From Rhizobacter sp. (GTDB lineage Bacteria > Pseudomonadota > Gammaproteobacteria > Burkholderiales > Burkholderiaceae_C): a DNA stretch of 32,241 nt. The notes below the pieces were generated by a model. That model made no database searches. It was not told the DNA's origin and saw nothing but the letters and a program-made list of their open reading frames with translations. The stretch is taken from the NCBI GenBank assembly GCA_017881025.1, contig JADGRJ010000015.1, forward strand, positions 1 through 32,241, given 5' to 3'. Positions 10,997 through 32,112 of the stretch are shown in pieces (positions within the stretch are counted from its first letter, which is position 1; each line of letters begins with the position of its first letter). The position numbers and the translations under genes were made by a program.

Positions 10997-11021
10997 GGCG
11001 ATGCGCGGGGCGGTGAGGCGG

Positions 11022-13049
11022 CTAGGCGTCCTTGGCCAGCACCACCGCGGGCGCGGCGAGAAAGCGCTGCATCGCGAGCACGGCGACGATCAGCGACAGG
11101 CCCACCGCATCGGCGATGCCGCCCGGATAGACGAGCGCGACGCCGGCAACGATCAGCATGACGCGTTCGAGTGGGGTGGCGCGCCGCAACGCCCAGCCCT
11201 GGAAGCCGCCGGCGATCGCGGCGATGCCGAGCGCCGCGGTCAGCGTCACCTGCGCGATCGACCACCAGTTGGCGGCGGCGAGCGCCTTCGTCGAGCCCAT
11301 CAGCAGCAGGCCCTGGCCAGCCGGGTCGAGGACGAACATGAACGGCAGCAGGAACGCCGGAACGGTGTACTTCCAGCATTGCATCGTCGTCTTGTACGGG
11401 TCGCCGCCGGTGATCGCCGCGGCCGCGAACGGCGACAGCGCCGTCGGTGGCGAGACCTCGGAGAGCACGGCGTAATAGAAGATGAACATGTGCGCGGCGA
11501 AGTCGGGGACGCCGAGCTTGATCAGCGCCGGCGCGGCGATCACCGCGCAGATGATGTACGACGCCGTCACCGGCACGGCGAGGCCGACGACCCAGACGAC
11601 GAGCGACGTGAAGATCGCGGTCAGGAGGAGCGAGCCGGCGGCGTAGTCGATGACGATCGAGCTGAACTTCAGGCCGAGGCCAGTGAGGGCGACGACGCCG
11701 ACGATGATGCCGGCGCCGGCGCAGGTCGCGCCGACGTTGAGCATGCCGATCGCGCCGCCTTCCATTGCCTTGGCGAAGCCGGAGTGAAGGAGGTGGTCCT
11801 TGACCGAGCCCTTGCCGCGAAAGAGGTCGTACGAAAAGAGCGCCGTCTCCGGGCGCAGCATGCTGGTCGCGAGCGCGACGACGGTCGCCCAGAACACCGA
11901 GAGCACCGGCGAGAAGCCCCACAGCATGAAGGCGACGATCGAGACCAGCGAGAGGAAGTGGAACCAGTAGCGCTTGCTCAGGTTCCAGACCGTGTCGACG
12001 CGCTCGAAGGCGACGTCACGCATTCCGTACTTGCGCGCGTCGATCTCGACCATGAGAAAGAGCGCCAGATAGAACAGCAGCGTCGGGATGCACGCCATCA
12101 GGAGAACGTCGAGGTACGAGATCTTCAGGAACTCGGCGATCAGGAAGGCCGCGGCGCCCAGCACCGGCGGCGAGATGATCGCGCCGAGGCCGCCGGCGGC
12201 GAGCAGGCCGCCGGCGGCGTTCTTCTCGTAGCCGACCTTCTCGAGCAGCGGGTATGCGACCGCGCCGAGCGTCACCGTCGTCGCCACGCCCGAGCCCGAC
12301 GGGCCGCCGAGCAGGAACGACGCGAGCACGACGGTGCGCCCGGCGCCGGTCGGCTTGCCGCCCATCGCCGAGAACGAGAAGTCGAGGTAGAACTTGCCGG
12401 CGCCCGAGTGCTGCAGGAACGCGCCGTAGATCGTGAACAGGATGATCAGCGACGAGGCGACGTCGACGGCGACGCCGAAGATGCCTTCGAGCGTCATGTA
12501 GAGGATGCCGACCAGGCGGCCGACCTCGTAGCCCTTGTGCGTCCACGGCGCCGGCAGGTAGGGGCCGGCGAGGGCGTAGGCGACGAAGGCGAGCGTGATC
12601 ACCGGCATGATCCAGCCGCTGGTTCGCCGCATCGCCTCGAGGACGAGGACGATCAGGCCGACGCCGAAGACGATGTCCCAGGGGTCGGGCGAGGTGTTGC
12701 GGTCGGTGAAGTCGTCGCCGCCGAGGATCGCGTAGACGACGACCGCCATCGCCAGCGCCGCCGCCAGCCAGTCCCACCACATGACGCGGTGGCGAAAGCG
12801 CCGCGTGACCGGAAAGACCAGGAAGCAGAGGAAGAGGACGAAGGCGACGTGGACCGGCCGCAGCACCTGCGTCGGCACGATCGCGTAGGCGCTGTAGAGA
12901 TGGAACGCCGCCATCACGAAGGCGACGAGGCGAACGAAGCCGCCGAGCCAGCCCTTCAGCTTGTTGGCCGCGCCTTCCTCTTCCTCGACGTACTGCTCGG
13001 CGCGAAGCAGCGCCTCTGCGCTGACGACGGCCGGCTCATCGGTACCCAT
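11022..13049 (-). CDS. TRAP transporter permease, fused small/large membrane subunits (DctQM type)
   Basis: 675 aa, many hydrophobic helices: GGPSGSGVATTVTLGAVAYPLLEKVGYEKNAAGGLLAAGGLGAIISPPVLGAAAFLIAEFL and EVSPPTALSPFAAAAITGGDPYKTTMQCWKYTVPAFLLPFMFVLDP. Confidence 0.93.
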   Translation of the reverse strand: MGTDEPAVVSAEALLRAEQYVEEEEGAANKLKGWLGGFVRLVAFVMAAFHLYSAYAIVPTQVLRPVHVAFVLFLCFLVFPVTRRFRHRVMWWDWLAAALAMAVVVYAILGGDDFTDRNTSPDPWDIVFGVGLIVLVLEAMRRTSGWIMPVITLAFVAYALAGPYLPAPWTHKGYEVGRLVGILYMTLEGIFGVAVDVASSLIILFTIYGAFLQHSGAGKFYLDFSFSAMGGKPTGAGRTVVLASFLLGGPSGSGVATTVTLGAVAYPLLEKVGYEKNAAGGLLAAGGLGAIISPPVLGAAAFLIAEFLKISYLDVLLMACIPTLLFYLALFLMVEIDARKYGMRDVAFERVDTVWNLSKRYWFHFLSLVSIVAFMLWGFSPVLSVFWATVVALATSMLRPETALFSYDLFRGKGSVKDHLLHSGFAKAMEGGAIGMLNVGATCAGAGIIVGVVALTGLGLKFSSIVIDYAAGSLLLTAIFTSLVVWVVGLAVPVTASYIICAVIAAPALIKLGVPDFAAHMFIFYYAVLSEVSPPTALSPFAAAAITGGDPYKTTMQCWKYTVPAFLLPFMFVLDPAGQGLLLMGSTKALAAANWWSIAQVTLTAALGIAAIAGGFQGWALRRATPLERVMLIVAGVALVYPGGIADAVGLSLIVAVLAMQRFLAAPAVVLAKDA

Positions 13050-13070
13050 GTCGCGGCGCGTTCGCCGGCG

Positions 13071-14030
13071 TCAGTTGACCTTGATGCCCTTTTCCGCGTA
13101 GTACTTCAGTGCGCCGGGGTGAAACGGTATCGGCGTCGCCGCGGCCTTCTGGTTCTCGAGCTTGAAGTTGAGCGCTTCCTTGTGCACCGCGACGATGTCG
13201 TCCTTGCGGTCGAAGATCGTCTTGACGATGTTGTAGGCGGTCTTGTCGTCCATGCTCTCGTGCGCGACCAGGATGTTCATCACCGTCGCCTGCTTGTTGT
13301 CGGCGTCCATGCCCTTGTAGGTCTCCTTCGGGATCGTGTCCTGCACGTACAGGTTGCCGTACTTCTTGTTCATCGCCGTGACCGCGTCGGCGTGGTCGAC
13401 CAGCTTGACCTTGGTGTTGGGCGTGTTGGCGAGGTCGGTGACCGCCGCCGTCGGCAGGCCGCCGACCCAGAAGAACGCATCGATCTTGCCGTCCTTGATG
13501 GCGTTGACCGATTCGGCGGCGCCGAGCCGCTCGCGCTTCACGTCGCTGTCCTTGTCGAGGCCGGCCGCTTCGAGCAGGCGAAACGCCATCACCTCGGTGG
13601 CGCTGCCGGGCGAGCCGGTCGAGACGCGCTTGCCCTTCAGGTCGGCCATCTTGTTGATGCCGCGGCCCTCGACGGTGACGACGTGCATCCGGTTCGGATA
13701 CAGGACCATCAAGGTCCTGAGCGGCACCTTGTTGCCCTTGAACTTGTCCTCGCCGCGAAACGCGTCCTGGCTCGCGTCGGTCATCGCGAAGGCGATGTAG
13801 GGCTTGCCGCTGCCGATCAGCTTGAGGTTGTCGACCGACCCGCCGGTGACTTCGGCGGTCGCCTGCATGCCGGGCACGTGCTTCGAGAGCACGGCGGCGA
13901 TGCCGCCGCCCATCGGGTAGTAGACGCCGCCGGTGCCGCCGGTGGCGATCGAGATGTTCTGCGCCTGGACGGCGAAGGCGAGGGCCAGTCCGGCCAAGGG
14001 TGCGCAGGCGCGCGCGATCGAAAAGGTCAT
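13071..14030 (-). CDS. TAXI-family TRAP transporter substrate-binding protein
   Basis: Signal peptide MTFSIARACAPLAGLALAFAVQA, then QNISIATGGTGGVYYPMGGGIAAVLSK; C-terminus FHPGALKYYAEKGIKVN. Confidence 0.93.
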   Translation of the reverse strand: MTFSIARACAPLAGLALAFAVQAQNISIATGGTGGVYYPMGGGIAAVLSKHVPGMQATAEVTGGSVDNLKLIGSGKPYIAFAMTDASQDAFRGEDKFKGNKVPLRTLMVLYPNRMHVVTVEGRGINKMADLKGKRVSTGSPGSATEVMAFRLLEAAGLDKDSDVKRERLGAAESVNAIKDGKIDAFFWVGGLPTAAVTDLANTPNTKVKLVDHADAVTAMNKKYGNLYVQDTIPKETYKGMDADNKQATVMNILVAHESMDDKTAYNIVKTIFDRKDDIVAVHKEALNFKLENQKAAATPIPFHPGALKYYAEKGIKVN

Positions 14031-14290
14031 CGAAGTCTCCGGTGCGGCCGCTGCGCGGCGCGAGGTGCGGCGATTCTGCAACGCGCGGCGCGTCGAGCGC
14101 ATGCGGGTTCTTGCCGGTGCGCCGACGACCGCGCCGATGGTGCAAGCGGAGCGCGCCGTCGCGGCGGCGACGAGGCAGATCGTCCCGGCGTGTCTCTTCA
14201 CTCGAAAAAGGAGCCTTCGCGCCGGCTGATCATGCGACCGGCGTCGGCCTCTGCGGGCATCCTCGCTGAATCTCTTCTCCGAGCTTCGCC

Positions 14291-14635
14291 ATGCATGCCC
14301 TCTCGGTCCGACTCTCCGGCAAGCGCCTCTACATCGCCGACCTGGCGGCCCGCCTCGAAGCGATGGAGAACGGTCGCGCGCCCATGAACGCGCTTGCCTA
14401 CAGGCTCTATGCGCGGCGCATGGCGGCGGCGATGGAAGGCTATCCGCCGGGGCTCCTCGCGGCCCAGCTCGGCCGCGCCTATCCGTCGGTCCTGCACGCG
14501 ATCGAGCACCGTCAGTTCGAGGTCGACGGCGCGTTGAGCGGGCAGCGCGGCCGCGGCGCTCGGGTCGTCGCGACGGCGCTGCTGCGCCATCTGCATCGCC
14601 ACCGGCAGCGCCGTCAGCGCCGCGCCGCGCCATAG
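14291..14635 (+). CDS. Hypothetical protein
   Basis: 114-aa ORF in the gap upstream of the TAXI gene with strongly GC-biased third codon positions; overlaps the convergent neighbour by 22 nt. No family recognised. Confidence 0.5.
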   Translation: MHALSVRLSGKRLYIADLAARLEAMENGRAPMNALAYRLYARRMAAAMEGYPPGLLAAQLGRAYPSVLHAIEHRQFEVDGALSGQRGRGARVVATALLRHLHRHRQRRQRRAAP

Positions 14636-15237
14636 GCGAAGTCGTCGAAGGCGGTGACGCTGTCGGCCTTGGTCCAGACACCGACAGCGCCCGATCCTGC
14701 GATGTGGTCGTCCTCGACGTCGATGCAGCGCTTGCCGTCGAGCGAGACGGCGATCCGCGCGCCAACGAACTCGACGCGCAGTGTGTGCCAGACCCCGGCG
14801 GGCACCGGCGCGTCGACGTAGCGGATCGTCTTGCGGCTGCCGCCCTCGGTGTAGTAGAGCGAGACGTTGTTCTCGAGCGCGTTGGCGCGGGCGACGTAGT
14901 AGTGGTCGCCGTCCTTCCAGCGCCAGACCAGCCCGCCGGCCTGGTCTTCGCGACCCGAGACCGGCTTGAACTTCACCTCGACGAAGCCGTCGCTCAGCGA
15001 CGTGCCGGTCCGCACGCACCAGGGAAACGTGCCGCTGCCCGACTGGCGCAGCACGTTCGATCCGCTCGGCGCCCCCGGCTCCTTCGCCACGGTCCAGCGC
15101 GGGCTGCCGCGGCCGGTGACGCCGCAGGTCCAGCCGGAAGGCGCCGCGCCGACCGGGTCGGTCTCGAAATCGACGGTCTGGGCGATGACGCTCGTCGAGA
15201 GGATCGAGGTCAGCACGCCGATGGAGGCAGGGTTCAT
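14614..15237 (-). CDS. Secreted protein with concanavalin-like / 3-keto-disaccharide hydrolase (DUF1080)-like fold
   Basis: Signal peptide MNPASIGVLTSILSTSVIAQ, then DGFVEVKFKPVSGREDQAGGLVWRWKDGDHYYVARANALENNVSLYYTEGGSRKTI ... GVWTKADSVTAFDDFAYG. Confidence 0.75.
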   Translation of the reverse strand: MNPASIGVLTSILSTSVIAQTVDFETDPVGAAPSGWTCGVTGRGSPRWTVAKEPGAPSGSNVLRQSGSGTFPWCVRTGTSLSDGFVEVKFKPVSGREDQAGGLVWRWKDGDHYYVARANALENNVSLYYTEGGSRKTIRYVDAPVPAGVWHTLRVEFVGARIAVSLDGKRCIDVEDDHIAGSGAVGVWTKADSVTAFDDFAYGAARR

Positions 15238-19319: not shown

Positions 19320-20057
19320 ATGCGCGAAGCGACCCAAGCCGCTTCGCGCCCGCCGATGCCCGGCTACCAGACCAAGCAGGAACGGGTCTCGATCGCCGGG
19401 GTCGACGACCTCGTCATCCGCTCGCTCCTCGACCGCCAGCAGTTCGCCGACCGCGACGGCGCCGCGGAGCGGCTCGGCATCTCGTCGGCGGCGTGGCCGC
19501 TGTTCGGCCTGCTTTGGCCCTCGGGCGCGCTGCTCGCGGCGCGGCTCGGCGCGCGGCCGGTGACGGCCGGCGAGCGAATCCTCGAGATCGGCTGCGGCCT
19601 CGCCCTGGCGAGCCTGGTCGGGCACCGCCGCGGCGTCGACGTGACGGCGAGCGACCGCCATCCGCTGACTGAGCTCTTTCTTGCGGAGAACCTGCGCCTG
19701 AATGGCCTGCTGCCGATGAAGTACCTGCACGGCGACTGGGACGCGGCCGCCGATGAGGGTGACGCCGACGCGGCCGCCCCCGCGCCGGGCCGCTTCGACC
19801 TGATCGTCGGCAGCGACCTGCTCTACGAGCGGGATGCGAGCGGCGCGCTGGCCGGGTTCATCAGTCGTCATGCGAAGGCGTCGTGCGAGGTGTGGATCGT
19901 CGATCCCGACCGGAGCAATCGGCCGGCCTTCAACCGGCGCATGGCCGCCGACGGCTTCGAACGGAGCGAGGAACGCCTCGACGTCGCCGCCACCGCGACG
20001 GGTGCGGCATACAAGGGACGGCTGCTCGTCTATCACCGTAAACTTGCCGCCCATTGA
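19320..20057 (+). CDS. Class I SAM-dependent methyltransferase (lysine/ETFB-methyltransferase-like)
   Basis: [54 protein letters not shown]. Start could also be ATG at 19356. Confidence 0.82.
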
Positions 20058-20100
20058 CGGCGCCCACCGCCCGCCGTCGCCAGCCCAGCCGAGCGCCGCC

Positions 20101-20772
20101 GTGCCCCTCCTTCCCGAACTGCTCGAGAACAACCGCCGCTGGGCGGAGAAGATGGAAGCGGCGCGGCCGGGCTTCTTCACTGGCCTGCTGCAGCAGCAGG
20201 GGCCGAAATACCTGTGGATCGGCTGCGCCGACAGCCGGGTTCCCGCCAACGAGCTGGTCGACCTCGACCCGGGCGAGCTCTTCGTCCACCGCAACGTCGC
20301 CAACGTCGTCGTCCACTCCGACCTGAACTGCCTCTCGGTGATCCAGTTCGCGACCGACGTGATCAAGGTGCGCCACATCATCGTCGTCGGCCATTCGCAG
20401 TGCGGCGGCGTCATCGCCGCGCTCGAGGACCGCCGCGTCGGCCTCGCCGACAACTGGCTGCGCCATGTCCAGGACGTTCGCAACCGGCACAGCGCCTGGC
20501 TCGAGACGGTCGCCCCCGCCGATCGCGTCAATGCCCTCTGCGAGCTCAACGTCGTCGAGCAGGCGCTCAACGTCTGCCAGACGACGGTGGTCCAGGAAGC
20601 GTGGCAGCGCGGCCAGGAGATCGTCGTCCACGGCTGGGTCTATCGCCTGCACAACGGCCTGCTCAAGGACCTGACGATGACGGTGAGCCGGCTTGACGAC
20701 GCCGGCGTCGCCTACGAGCGCGCGCTCGCCGTCGTGCACGCGCGCTATTCCGAGCCCTCGCGCGCGGCCTGA
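20101..20772 (+). CDS. can: Beta-class carbonic anhydrase
   Basis: GTG start. WIGCADSRVPANELVDLDPGELFVHRNVANVV and VGHSQCGGVIAAL zinc/active-site motifs. Confidence 0.95.
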   Translation: MPLLPELLENNRRWAEKMEAARPGFFTGLLQQQGPKYLWIGCADSRVPANELVDLDPGELFVHRNVANVVVHSDLNCLSVIQFATDVIKVRHIIVVGHSQCGGVIAALEDRRVGLADNWLRHVQDVRNRHSAWLETVAPADRVNALCELNVVEQALNVCQTTVVQEAWQRGQEIVVHGWVYRLHNGLLKDLTMTVSRLDDAGVAYERALAVVHARYSEPSRAA

Positions 20773-20787
20773 CGCGAAGGCCGCGCG
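20761..20787. terminator. Terminator-like hairpin overlapping the carbonic anhydrase stop codon
   Basis: Perfect 10-bp inverted repeat CGCGCGGCCT-GACGCGA-AGGCCGCGCG; TGA stop lies at 20770-20772. Lies before a convergent gene; no T-tract. Confidence 0.45.
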
Positions 20788-20815
20788 GGCCGGCGCGGAT
20801 CCACCCGTCGTTCCG

Positions 20816-21472
20816 CTAGAGCCGCTTCGCCGCGGCCCGCCCCAGCTCTTCGAACGCCTTGAGCGCGGCCGCGCGGTCGCGCCGCGGCAGCTCGGCCGAT
20901 CCGAGCGAGATGTTGTGCTCGCCCTTGCGCAGCTCCAGGAGGGCGCCGTCGCCGAGGATGCCCTTTGCCTTGTCGGCAGTTTCGACGAACGCCGCGGCAT
21001 CGACGCCGAGGGACGGAAATGCCTCGATGCGAACGTTCTTCAGCGCGCGCTGGTCGAGCGGATTGGTGAAGCCCTGCGCCATGCCGAGCGCGTCCTCGTG
21101 CGCGCTCTTGCCGCCGTTGTAGGACTCCTGCACCGCCAGGAGGACCTGGCCGTTCGCGGCCTTCCAGCCGCACTCGGTGATGCCGTACTCCTCGAGCCGC
21201 TTGCTGCGCTCGGCCTTGGCGCCGGGAAAGACCTTCTGCACGTCGGCGCTCGAGACGATCGTGCACGGGTCGCCGTCGGGCAGCTTCTTCGCCGCCGGCG
21301 TTGCGCCGGTGACCGCGCGGATGCCCTTGGCGGTCTTCTCGGCCGCCTTGGCCGCATCGGCGGGCCGGGTCGTCTGCGCCGTCGCGGCGCCCGTGGCAAG
21401 GAGCGCGAGGGTCGCGACGCCGATGAAGAGGAGCGCGTTCGCGCGGCGAACTGCAATGCAAGGAAGGGTCAT
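20816..21472 (-). CDS. Hypothetical secreted protein
   Basis: 218 aa, signal peptide (ANALLFIGVATLALLATGAATAQ), then PCTIVSSADVQKVFPGAKAE ... ECGWKAANGQVLLAVQ, vaguely DUF3558-like. Confidence 0.75.
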   Translation of the reverse strand: MTLPCIAVRRANALLFIGVATLALLATGAATAQTTRPADAAKAAEKTAKGIRAVTGATPAAKKLPDGDPCTIVSSADVQKVFPGAKAERSKRLEEYGITECGWKAANGQVLLAVQESYNGGKSAHEDALGMAQGFTNPLDQRALKNVRIEAFPSLGVDAAAFVETADKAKGILGDGALLELRKGEHNISLGSAELPRRDRAAALKAFEELGRAAAKRL

Positions 21473-21539
21473 GTCCAGGTCGATCGGAGTGAAGGTCGCC
21501 GATCATCACACTTCCGCCGGCGCGTCGATAATCCGCCTC

Positions 21540-22010
21540 ATGCGCGCCGCCTGCCTCGTCGCTCTGATCGCCCTGGGCGCCCTGGTGGTTCCGGCCGCGC
21601 ACGCCCAGGGCGCGAACTTCGATCGCGACTGCTCGCAATGGATCGAGAAGAAGGGCTTCTCGACCGACTACATCAAGCTCCGGACCGGCAAGCGCCAGCG
21701 CGGCATGGCCGACGGCTGGCGCGGCAACGTCGAGCCGAAGGACGTCCAGCCCGGCGACGTCGTCATCACTTACATCAAGGACAAGGGCCGGCGCATGCGC
21801 GTCTCGTACGTCGAGGACGTGCGCCGCAACGGCGACGGCCGTGCCGGCGCGGTGATCGTCACCGAGTGGAACGAAGGCAAGTACATCGACGAGCCGTGCC
21901 TCGTCACCGACCACTTCGGCCGCGACTCGGGCCAGCGGTCGATCCCGATCGACACCGTCGTGCGGGTCTGGCGGCCGAGCCTGCCACTGCCGAACGGCGC
22001 CGCCGACTGA
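21540..22010 (+). CDS. Hypothetical secreted protein, possible CHAP/amidase-like fold
   Basis: 156 aa, signal peptide MRAACLVALIALGALVVPAAHAQ, then FDRDCSQWIEKKGFSTDYIKLRTGKRQRGMADGWRGNVEPKDVQPGDVVITYI. Confidence 0.72.
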   Translation: MRAACLVALIALGALVVPAAHAQGANFDRDCSQWIEKKGFSTDYIKLRTGKRQRGMADGWRGNVEPKDVQPGDVVITYIKDKGRRMRVSYVEDVRRNGDGRAGAVIVTEWNEGKYIDEPCLVTDHFGRDSGQRSIPIDTVVRVWRPSLPLPNGAAD

Positions 22011-22045
22011 GCCCCTCGCCGGCGGACCATTCGATCGAGGAGACG

Positions 22046-23071
22046 GTGTTGACCGACGCTCAGGAACTGGTGCTCGAGCTGTTCTACGGCCGCTGGCGCA
22101 GCCAGACATTGCATGCGGGCGTCGAGCTCGGCGTCTTCGAGGCGGTCGGTAGCGTTCCCGCGACTGCGGCGCAGGTCGCACACGACCTCGACCTCGATCC
22201 GGCGCTGACCTACCGCCTGCTGCGTGCGCTGGCGTCGCTGCGCGTGCTCGGCGCGCACGACGGAGAAGCGTTTTCGATCACCGAGGCGGGTGCGATGCTG
22301 CGCGGCGATCACCCGCAGTCGATGCGCGACGCCCTTCTCCTGCGCGAGGGTCCTGAGCACACCGCGATCTGGAAGCACCTGTCAGCGCTCGTTCGCGACG
22401 GCAGTCAGGACGGTTTCGCTCGCGAGTTCGGCGTCGCCGCGTTCGAGCATGCCGCGCGCGAGCCCTCCTACCGCAAGGCCTTCGACGCCGGCATGAGCAG
22501 CCAGTCGAACTTGCAGACCGGCTGGGCCCTCGAGGCGCTCGAGCGGTGCGATGTCGCCGCGATCGCGCACCTTTGCGACGTCGGCGGTGGTCAGGGCCAT
22601 CTGCTCTGCCATCTCCTGGCGCGCTATCCGCACCTGGAGGGAACGATTCTGGAGCGCCCTGGCGTCCTCGGCCCGGGCGCGGCGCCCTGGGCGTCCCGGC
22701 TTGGCGTCGCCGATCGCTGCACGAGCGTCGCCGGCGACATGTTCGTCGACGTTCCCGGTGCCGACGCGTACACGATGAAGATGATCCTCCACGACTGGAA
22801 CGACGACGAATGCGTGCGGATCCTCGCCAACCTGCGCCGCCGTGCGAGCGCGTCGGGTCGGGTCTTCATCATCGAGCACGTGATTCCCGACGGCGGCGCT
22901 CCGGACTACGCGGCGCTGTTCGACATGCACATGCTGTGCTGGGGCACGGGCAAGGAGCGGACGGTCGAGGAGTACCGCGCGCTCCTGCGTGAGTCGGGAT
23001 GGACGTTCACGGCGGCCCGCTTCCCGCGCAGCGGCGCCATCGGCGTGGTCGAGGCGTCGAAAGCCGCCTGA
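22046..23071 (+). CDS. O-methyltransferase (family 2, acetylserotonin/hydroxyneurosporene methyltransferase-like)
   Basis: GTG start preceded by GAGGAG. N-terminal dimerisation/wHTH-like region, then LCDVGGGQGHLLCHLLARYPHLEGTILERPGVL and MKMILHDWNDDECVRILANLRR. Confidence 0.88.
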   Translation: MLTDAQELVLELFYGRWRSQTLHAGVELGVFEAVGSVPATAAQVAHDLDLDPALTYRLLRALASLRVLGAHDGEAFSITEAGAMLRGDHPQSMRDALLLREGPEHTAIWKHLSALVRDGSQDGFAREFGVAAFEHAAREPSYRKAFDAGMSSQSNLQTGWALEALERCDVAAIAHLCDVGGGQGHLLCHLLARYPHLEGTILERPGVLGPGAAPWASRLGVADRCTSVAGDMFVDVPGADAYTMKMILHDWNDDECVRILANLRRRASASGRVFIIEHVIPDGGAPDYAALFDMHMLCWGTGKERTVEEYRALLRESGWTFTAARFPRSGAIGVVEASKAA

Positions 23072-27978: not shown

Positions 27979-29325
27979 CTAGCCTTGTCCAGCAGCGCCG
28001 GCCGCCTTCGACCAGCGAACCACGAGGCCGCTCTTGTGCTCGGGCGGCACCACCCACTTGAGCGACAGGTCCTGGGAGGGAAGGTCCCATGTGGCCGTTC
28101 TCAGCGCCAGCGCGGCGAAGAGCTGCATCATCACCGTCGCGAAGTCGTAGCCGGCGCATTTGTGGAAGGTGAGGGCGCCGGCGCCCTGCGGCATGAAGGC
28201 GTCGGGGGCACGCTTCTTCTCGTCGCGCTCGGGAGAAAAACGCTCGGGATCGAACTTCTCCGGGGCGGTGAAGATCGGATCGAGGTTGCTCTCGTAGACC
28301 GCCATCATCACCAGGTGGCCCTGCGGGATGGTGTAGCCGGCGACGTCGATGGCGCATTTGGCGCGCCCGAAGCTCATTGGCACGTTCGGGCAGGTCCGCT
28401 TCACTTCGTCGACCACCTGCATGAGGTACGGCATCGCCCGCAGCCGGGCCGGACCGATCGGCCCCGAGGGCGCGTTGGCAAGCACCTCTGCGCGCAGGCG
28501 CTCGCATACGTCGGGGTTCTCGTGAAGCGCGCGCAGGGTCGCGGCGAGCTCGGCATAGACGATCATTCCGGCGAGGAGGAAGTGGTGCATCTCGCGCGCT
28601 GCCGTCTTCGCGTCGAGCGGCGCGCCTGCCTCGCGGGCCGCGGAGAGGATGCGCGCGAGGCCGTCCGGCCGGGCCGGCGGCGCATCGATGTGGCGCTGCG
28701 CGATCTTTTCCAGGAGCGCGAGGATCCGGTCGCGCGCTTGCAGGCCCTTCGAGTAGGCGGTCCCGGGCAGGCCGATCGGCAGCGCGACGAAGGCGCTGGC
28801 GAGGATCGCGTTGTCGGCGAGCAGGCGGCTGAGCTCTTCTCCGGGCTCCAGGCCGAAGATGGCGCCGGCCAGCGATTCGATCGCGAGCGTCTTCAGGTCG
28901 GCCGTCACCGGGCCCTCGCGGTTCGCCAGCCACTTCGCGAGCAGTCCTTCGATCCGGGCCTGCAGGCCCGGCAGGTAGGCCTCGATCGCCTCGGGCGAGA
29001 ACGCGGCGAGGAGGCTTCGCTTGCGCTGCGCGTGGGCCTCGCCGTCGAGGAGCGGAACGATGTCCGGGTCGCCGCCGAAGAGCGCCAGCAGGTTGGCCGG
29101 CATCGCGCCTTCGCGCTGGACTTTCGTCGGGTCGAGCCAGAGCCCGGCGCGCTGCGGGCCGGCGATGAACACGGTCGGCTTGCCGAGAATGCTGGTGCGG
29201 AAGACATCGCCGAAACGGGCGCGACGCTGGCGGATGAAGGCGAAAGGATCCTTCGCGAACTGGAGCGTCTCGCCGACGAGCGGCAGGCCGCTGCTGCCGG
29301 GAGGAAGTGGATTCGCAGCGGCCAT
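27979..29325 (-). CDS. Cytochrome P450, atypical (non-canonical I-helix and heme loop)
   Basis: N-terminal PPGSSGLPLVGETLQFAKDPFAFIRQRRARFGDVF; ExxR motif in VVDEVKRT; heme-ligand loop FMPQGAGALTFHKCAGYDFA. Start ATG 29325 is preceded by a strong GAAGGAGG Shine-Dalgarno. Confidence 0.85.
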   Translation of the reverse strand: MAAANPLPPGSSGLPLVGETLQFAKDPFAFIRQRRARFGDVFRTSILGKPTVFIAGPQRAGLWLDPTKVQREGAMPANLLALFGGDPDIVPLLDGEAHAQRKRSLLAAFSPEAIEAYLPGLQARIEGLLAKWLANREGPVTADLKTLAIESLAGAIFGLEPGEELSRLLADNAILASAFVALPIGLPGTAYSKGLQARDRILALLEKIAQRHIDAPPARPDGLARILSAAREAGAPLDAKTAAREMHHFLLAGMIVYAELAATLRALHENPDVCERLRAEVLANAPSGPIGPARLRAMPYLMQVVDEVKRTCPNVPMSFGRAKCAIDVAGYTIPQGHLVMMAVYESNLDPIFTAPEKFDPERFSPERDEKKRAPDAFMPQGAGALTFHKCAGYDFATVMMQLFAALALRTATWDLPSQDLSLKWVVPPEHKSGLVVRWSKAAGAAGQG

Positions 29326-29380
29326 GTCGCCTCCTTCGCCGTTCAAACCCAGACGATTGTAGGGAGGGCCGAGAACCGCG

Positions 29381-31641: not shown

Positions 31642-32112
31642 TCAGACCCAGATCTGAAGCACGTAGTCGAACGGCGCTTGCGAATTGAAGAGGTCGACCC
31701 GTTGCAGCCGAATGCGCAGCGCGCCGGCGCCGTCGCGAACGAGCGTGTGCCGGTAGCTGCCGCCGAAGTGGCGCACGCTGTCGCGCCGGAGCTCCATCAT
31801 GTGAAAGCGCGAGCGCACCTCGATCGTCGTCGCCGTCACCGACTCCAGGGCGACGTGGCTGACGAGGTGATTTGTCTCCCACATCGGCGCCTGCGACCAC
31901 GCGTTCGGATGCGAGACGCGGCCTTTCCGGATCTCCATCATCAGCCTGTCTTCGGCGAAGATCGACGGCGATCCTTCCCACTCGGTCTGCTCGCGCGTCA
32001 CCGGCATCCAGTAGACGCCGTCGTCGGCGAAGAGGTCGATGAACGCCTGCCAGTGCTTGCCGTCGAGCAGCTCGGCCTGGCGGTAGAGGAACTGCTCGAC
32101 CTCGCGCTGCAC
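31642..32112 (-). CDS. Aromatic-ring-hydroxylating dioxygenase beta subunit (5' end may extend past window)
   Basis: VEQFLYRQAELLDGKHWQAFIDLFADDGVYWMPV ... RIRKGRVSHPNAWSQAPMWETNHLVSHV-type sequence. GTG at 32112 is a possible start, but the frame stays open to the window edge. Confidence 0.85.
   Translation of the reverse strand: MQREVEQFLYRQAELLDGKHWQAFIDLFADDGVYWMPVTREQTEWEGSPSIFAEDRLMMEIRKGRVSHPNAWSQAPMWETNHLVSHVALESVTATTIEVRSRFHMMELRRDSVRHFGGSYRHTLVRDGAGALRIRLQRVDLFNSQAPFDYVLQIWV

Follow-up and report, generated by a model that had tools for sequence, protein, structure and literature searches.

A Rhizobacter cytochrome P450 that groups beside the CYP152 peroxygenases lacks both the acid-alcohol pair and the CYP152 arginine

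A 32,241-nucleotide stretch of a Rhizobacter sp. contig (JADGRJ010000015.1; the whole stretch is hereafter called the window) encodes a cytochrome P450 that is best read as a peroxygenase-type enzyme unable to use the arginine mechanism of CYP152, and for which we infer the use of peroxide. We put at roughly 0.5 the probability that it is a heme-thiolate P450 of a new family, sister to CYP152, that runs on H2O2 or an organic hydroperoxide instead of ferredoxin and O2; its handling of peroxide or oxygen is probably of a kind that has yet to be described. The coding sequence is a single intact frame of 448 amino acids plus stop (Table 1), and the Pfam p450 match covers most of it (residues 15-425). 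Translation likely starts at the ATG at 29325 and not at the TTG at 29346 given in a mechanical ORF list, because a GGAGG precedes this ATG and three orthologues start at about the same place. The features that define the P450 superfamily, namely the Pfam p450 domain, the heme Cys and ExxR, were all found, and Cys390, ExxR and the PERF region are intact; the ExxR (EVKR) reported in the initial annotation was confirmed.

Table 1. Features of the P450 gene and its product, with positions in the window.
Feature	Position	Strand	Basis
P450 coding sequence, ATG start	27979..29325	-	Pfam p450 E 1.6e-42; similar start in orthologues L004-L006; dN/dS 0.11-0.32
Ribosome-binding site GGAGG, 4 nt 5' of the ATG	29330..29334	-	sequence reading; GGAGG also before the L005 start
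REGAMP (R71, A74, P76), CYP152-type	29098..29115	-	CYP152 13/13, 12/13, 13/13; others 12%, 6%, 3%
C-helix HAQRK (H98, R101, K102), CYP152-type R-K	29020..29034	-	R101 and K102 in 13/13 CYP152; others 3%, 0%
I-helix, model residues 239-269	28519..28611	-	DSSP on the AlphaFold2 model
His247-His248; His248 replaces the Asn invariant in CYP152 rows (Asn238, SP-alpha)	28582..28587	-	column table; kept in 4/4 family members
Leu251, helix-aligned counterpart of the CYP152 carboxylate-binding Arg (Arg241, SP-alpha)	28573..28575	-	ungapped profile I-helix match; Arg in 13/13 CYP152
AGMIV; Ile255 and Val256 at the acid and Thr positions	28558..28572	-	alignment with AGFET/AGHET P450s and translation; 4/4 family members identical
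ExxR = EVKR, E307 and R310	28396..28407	-	translation; E and R invariant in 97/97 P450s aligned
PERF region FDPERF	28237..28254	-	alignments A1/A2
Expanded Cys loop PQGAGALTFHKCAG; Gln380 in place of the usual Phe; Cys390, heme ligand (codon 28156-28158)	28150..28191	-	translation; Q in 12/13 CYP152, F or Y in 80/80 others
C-terminal WDLPSQDLSLKWVVPPEHKSGLVVR, CYP152-like (Q418, D419, P427, S432)	28015..28089	-	matches CYP152 VPDQDLSI..PALPKSGFVMR

The gene is not an isolated occurrence. Three orthologues (L004, L005 and L006), all from Burkholderiales MAGs and 81-87% identical in alignment, keep AGMIVYAE unchanged, and Cys-loop length does not vary among the four family members. The dN/dS values of 0.11-0.32 denote purifying selection, and sequence comparison indicates a maintained gene; together with the conserved I-helix and loop length, this selection confirmed that the motif set did not arise by chance or artefact. 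The gene is present in 3 of the 6 genomes of the window's genus and in the MAG of L006, and a contig scan limited to close relatives found no orthologue outside that one genus and the one further Burkholderiales MAG. In the search for the wider family, draws of ~400 genomes at each of the family, order, class and phylum levels returned only distant P450s, and no member was found on plasmids (best match ~31%) or on the viral contigs searched; viral-contig scans for the structure-alignment P450s stood at none for A3 and nine for A4. In the L006 genome, a truncated second copy of the C-terminal part of the P450 lies ~8 kb from the intact gene (L107:1440-1700; genome G1149, contig C3 near 414150-414350), with an internal stop and an in-frame fusion to the start of another gene, and looks like the remnant of a duplication. 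Another genome of the window's genus (G004) is without the new P450 but has a true CYP152 with Arg-Pro (L012), and no CYP152 was seen among the best matches in the genomes carrying the new family; one might substitute for the other, the numbers being tiny.

The initial annotation had reported that the I-helix acid and Thr are replaced by Ile and Val, and the translation bears this out, giving AG-M-I-V within LLAGMIVYAELAATL at 28534-28578 (-). It had set the I-helix and heme-loop region at 28141-28572; the motifs do lie there, but the I-helix stretch extends 6 bases beyond that end. Among the 80 other P450s aligned, none is without both the acid and the Thr/Ser, and the protein did not fall within a characterised monooxygenase family having the same substitutions. 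In just one of these (L030, AAHDI) is the acid followed by neither Thr nor Ser, and in three the acid is replaced by His. Across the four family members, AGMIVYAELAATL is invariant.

Two registers relate this helix to that of CYP152. Alignment on the AGx(D/E)T motif points to Ile255-Val256, and profile alignment to CYP152, which is ungapped through the I-helix, sets Arg-Pro opposite Leu251-Ala252; the Arg-Pro of 13/13 CYP152 rows is Leu-Ala in 4/4 family members by the profile register and Ile-Val by the motif register, and neither yields an Arg at the clamp position. We take A264 of BM3 to be the Ala of AGHET. The OleT mutant R245E, in which the Glu seems to bind iron, has been likened to BM3 A264E (PMC5377825), and with A264 so assigned this likeness fits the register that has Arg-Pro at Leu251-Ala252. 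The literature describes Arg-Pro as taking the place of the acid-alcohol pair and as binding the carboxylate (PMC6167049; PMC5818669), and OleT R245L is severely compromised (PMC5377825), so that Leu at this position argues against the CYP152 carboxylate mechanism. Any implied CYP152-like action on fatty acids is unsupported, the carboxylate-binding Arg-Pro being absent.

The Cys loop, described earlier as about three residues longer than usual, is exactly three longer than in all 80 non-CYP152 P450s compared. From Pro to Cys the family has a length of 12, compared to 13 in 13/13 CYP152 rows and 9 in 80/80 other P450s, which leaves the loop one residue shorter than that of CYP152. Across the 97 P450s aligned, the insertion and the Phe-to-Gln change are confined to CYP152 and this family. 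A review links H2O2-driven P450s with a lost acid-alcohol pair, a lost heme-loop Phe and an altered proximal loop (PMC5818669). A proposed likeness to the CYP74 loop was not supported, as CYP74 has a nine-residue extra motif in the heme domain (PMC10813956), compared to an insertion of three here, and the sequence is of the CYP152 type.

The resemblance to CYP152 was upheld by phylogeny. A maximum-likelihood tree built on 79 P450s places the family next to 13 CYP152 sequences as their sister group (100/96 with all columns). The sister position holds at 99/94 after removal of the I-helix and Cys-loop columns, and an artefact of these trait columns was rejected on that ground. One CYP152 row (L094) is nearly identical to 3awm, the solved fatty acid alpha-hydroxylase SP-alpha. 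Many otherwise CYP152-only residues are also present: 19 of the 56 CYP152-diagnostic residues are common to the family, compared to a mean of 1.9 and a maximum of 5 in the 80 other P450s, and 18 of the 19 lie outside residues 245-268 and 376-393. An AU test did not reject a grouping of the family with CYP120 apart from CYP152 (p 0.098), an arrangement absent from the best tree, but pure long-branch attraction is less likely since the shared loop insertion and the 18 diagnostic residues outside the trait regions agree with the placement. From these sequences, the resemblance looks like true kinship. With CYP120 and CYP725A4 added, the family, CYP152 and CYP120 formed a clade (99/93). When CYP152 was removed the family joined CYP120 (100/98), and when the family was removed the CYP152-CYP120 link was not recovered, though not rejected either (p 0.257), suggesting that the family helps bridge the CYP120 monooxygenases and CYP152 in these trees, within the limits of an outgroup drawn mostly from Pseudomonadota and plasmids.

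The protein combines traits of both neighbours. In common with CYP152 (SP-alpha CYP152B1, BS-beta CYP152A1, OleT CYP152L1) it has the changed Cys loop, no acid-alcohol pair, the REGAMP, R-K and Q-D...S residues and a C-terminal KSGxVxR. CYP152 mostly has Gln or His where this P450 has Pro91, and is without the J-J' segment, between the I-helix and ExxR, which is kept here in CYP120-like form. The best NCBIfam match, CYP152 CypC, reached 125.6 bits against an equivalog cut-off of 600 bits. With an identity to CYP152 of 26-30%, a position outside the CYP152 clade and no Arg-Pro, this P450 is by sequence not a CYP152. In pairwise scores to structures CYP120A1 (2ve3) came first (190 bits), then CYP725A4 (taxadiene 5-alpha hydroxylase), then CYP152, and the highest overall similarity was to a cyanobacterial CYP120-like protein (31% over 443 residues), with an N-terminal PPGxxGLPLxGET and a J region alike in CYP120. 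An AlphaFold2 model from 12 sequences (pTM 0.80, mean pLDDT 75.8), in which the Cys loop is poorly defined (residues 374-388 below pLDDT 50), gave the same picture, its best Foldseek matches being CYP120A1 (TM 0.84), CYP725A4 and OleT. However, CYP120 has AGHET and FGGGxRxC, compared to AGMIV and QGAGxxxxHKC here, and neither its acid-alcohol pair (HET) nor its standard FGxGxRxC loop is found in this P450. By naming habit, members of a P450 family are ~40% identical or more. Since identity falls well short of 40% in all pairwise P450 comparisons other than those with its own orthologues, the usual rule would make this a new CYP family. Such families are common, as 54% of P450 families in a metagenome survey were reported to be new (PMC12416667). 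No description of a CYP152-like P450 without the Arg was found in the literature searched, which took in only a minority of subscription journals.

The genomic surroundings would fit a self-contained enzyme, given that no Fer2 gene adjoins the P450 and that neighbourhoods differ except between L004 and L005. There is no Fer2 domain on the P450 contig in the window, L004 and L005 genomes, and none within 200 kb of the P450 in the L006 genome, where the nearest on the contig is >200 kb away and the nearest Pyr_redox_2, among the matches listed, is ~20 kb away. The neighbourhoods of the window (methyltransferase and ABC transporter), L005 (PEP mutase and PhyH) and L006 (LysR) are unrelated, and L004 and L005 have flanking DNA in common. 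An operon or cluster explanation was rejected: the P450 aside, the window shares nothing with L004-L006, and L006 shares only one 39-base match with L004/L005. At the window edge, 31642-32112 (-) encodes a ring-hydroxylating dioxygenase beta subunit on the strand of the P450, upstream of a beta-lactamase-family serine hydrolase and a methyltransferase; no alpha subunit was seen within the window. A long frame at 20693-23071 (+) ends in an O-methyltransferase domain with its dimerisation domain and adjoins a carbonic anhydrase frame (19834-20772). The 1128-codon frame at 11001-14387 (+), of charged repetitive composition and without a Pfam match, is almost certainly noise from the antisense strand of a high-GC genome because it overlaps a minus-strand frame for an NMT1-type binding protein (13071-14765).

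Several findings count towards peroxide-driven chemistry. First, the family is sister to CYP152, has 19 of its 56 diagnostic residues and finds its best NCBIfam match in CypC. Second, the loop change occurs only in CYP152 and this family, and the review cited above ties that loop to H2O2 (PMC5818669). Third, the gene has no adjacent Fer2, sits in differing neighbourhoods and is under purifying selection. Counting against it, CYP120A1, where the acid-Thr pair is present, comes nearest in raw similarity and in model fold; the AU test gave p 0.098; the Cys loop is modelled with low confidence; and the genomes hold 13-24 Fer2 matches elsewhere, bacterial P450 redox partners often being encoded away from the P450. 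In the mechanism we propose, the ferric heme would bind H2O2 or an organic hydroperoxide, whose cleavage, yielding Compound I, would be aided by an acid-base group that is not the carboxylate of a fatty acid held by Arg. Compound I would then oxidise a substrate whose anchoring probably differs from that of a simple fatty acid. The best candidate for the acid-base group would be the conserved I-helix His248, or the substrate itself. His248, three residues before Leu251, should face the pocket and might serve as the acid/base group; Glu259, invariant in the family but two turns past Ala252, was judged less likely to reach the iron.

The leading alternative, which we judge possible but unlikely, is a monooxygenase that depends on redox partners and achieves O2 activation with no acid-alcohol pair, protons being delivered by the substrate or ordered water. 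P450eryF is a known P450 with a hydrophobic residue at the Thr position, and the similarity and fold shared with CYP120A1, the CYP120-like J region and the Fer2 domains elsewhere in each genome are in keeping with such an enzyme. However, acid and Thr are both gone here and not just one, the proximal loop, where a partner would dock, has been reshaped in a manner that only CYP152 shares among the P450s compared, and none of the four copies adjoins a Fer2 gene. Moreover, Ala or Val at the Thr position turns P450cam into an uncoupled oxidase (PMC10750395). A hydroperoxide isomerase, dehydratase or lyase, with chemistry like that of CYP74 (the allene oxide synthase group), which needs neither O2 nor partner (PMC10813956), appears improbable. 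It would share an altered I-helix groove, a lengthened heme domain and the lack of nearby Fer2, but CYP74 has nine extra heme-domain residues (PMC10813956) and this P450 three, and tree and residues tie it to CYP152. Still harder to credit is a divergent CYP152 that lost Arg-Pro secondarily: the 19 diagnostic residues and the insertion held in common would suit it, but 13/13 CYP152 rows form a 100/100 clade without this family, which keeps the J-J' segment missing in CYP152 and has the shorter loop. Finally, a heme protein without oxygenase activity, whether for binding, sensing or as a decaying gene, is very improbable, for despite the lost catalytic pair, the patchy, nearly single-genus distribution and the truncated L107 copy, the heme Cys, ExxR and PERF are intact, dN/dS is 0.11-0.32 and the I-helix core is identical in 4/4 family members.

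Returning to the peroxygenase-type reading, its interest is raised by a P450 that stands beside CYP152 and shows only some of the CYP152 features. No natural H2O2-driven P450s are better known than the CYP152 enzymes, and their origin from O2-using P450s has so far been inferred from the end product only. Here, a CYP120-like body is combined with a CYP152-type heme loop, a lost acid-alcohol pair and no arginine clamp, and with this partial set the order of those changes becomes testable. We suggest, tentatively and as an unlikely case, that the family is a surviving relative from the CYP152 stem, peroxide-driven without the Arg-Pro clamp, in which a protein acid-base group (e.g. His248, in peroxidase-like fashion) replaces the substrate carboxylate; if true, nature would have solved P450 peroxygenase chemistry in a second way. 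For CYP152 enzymes to oxidise molecules other than fatty acids, decoy acids must be added, and the new family, if peroxide-driven, would offer a peroxygenase scaffold independent of fatty-acid carboxylates.
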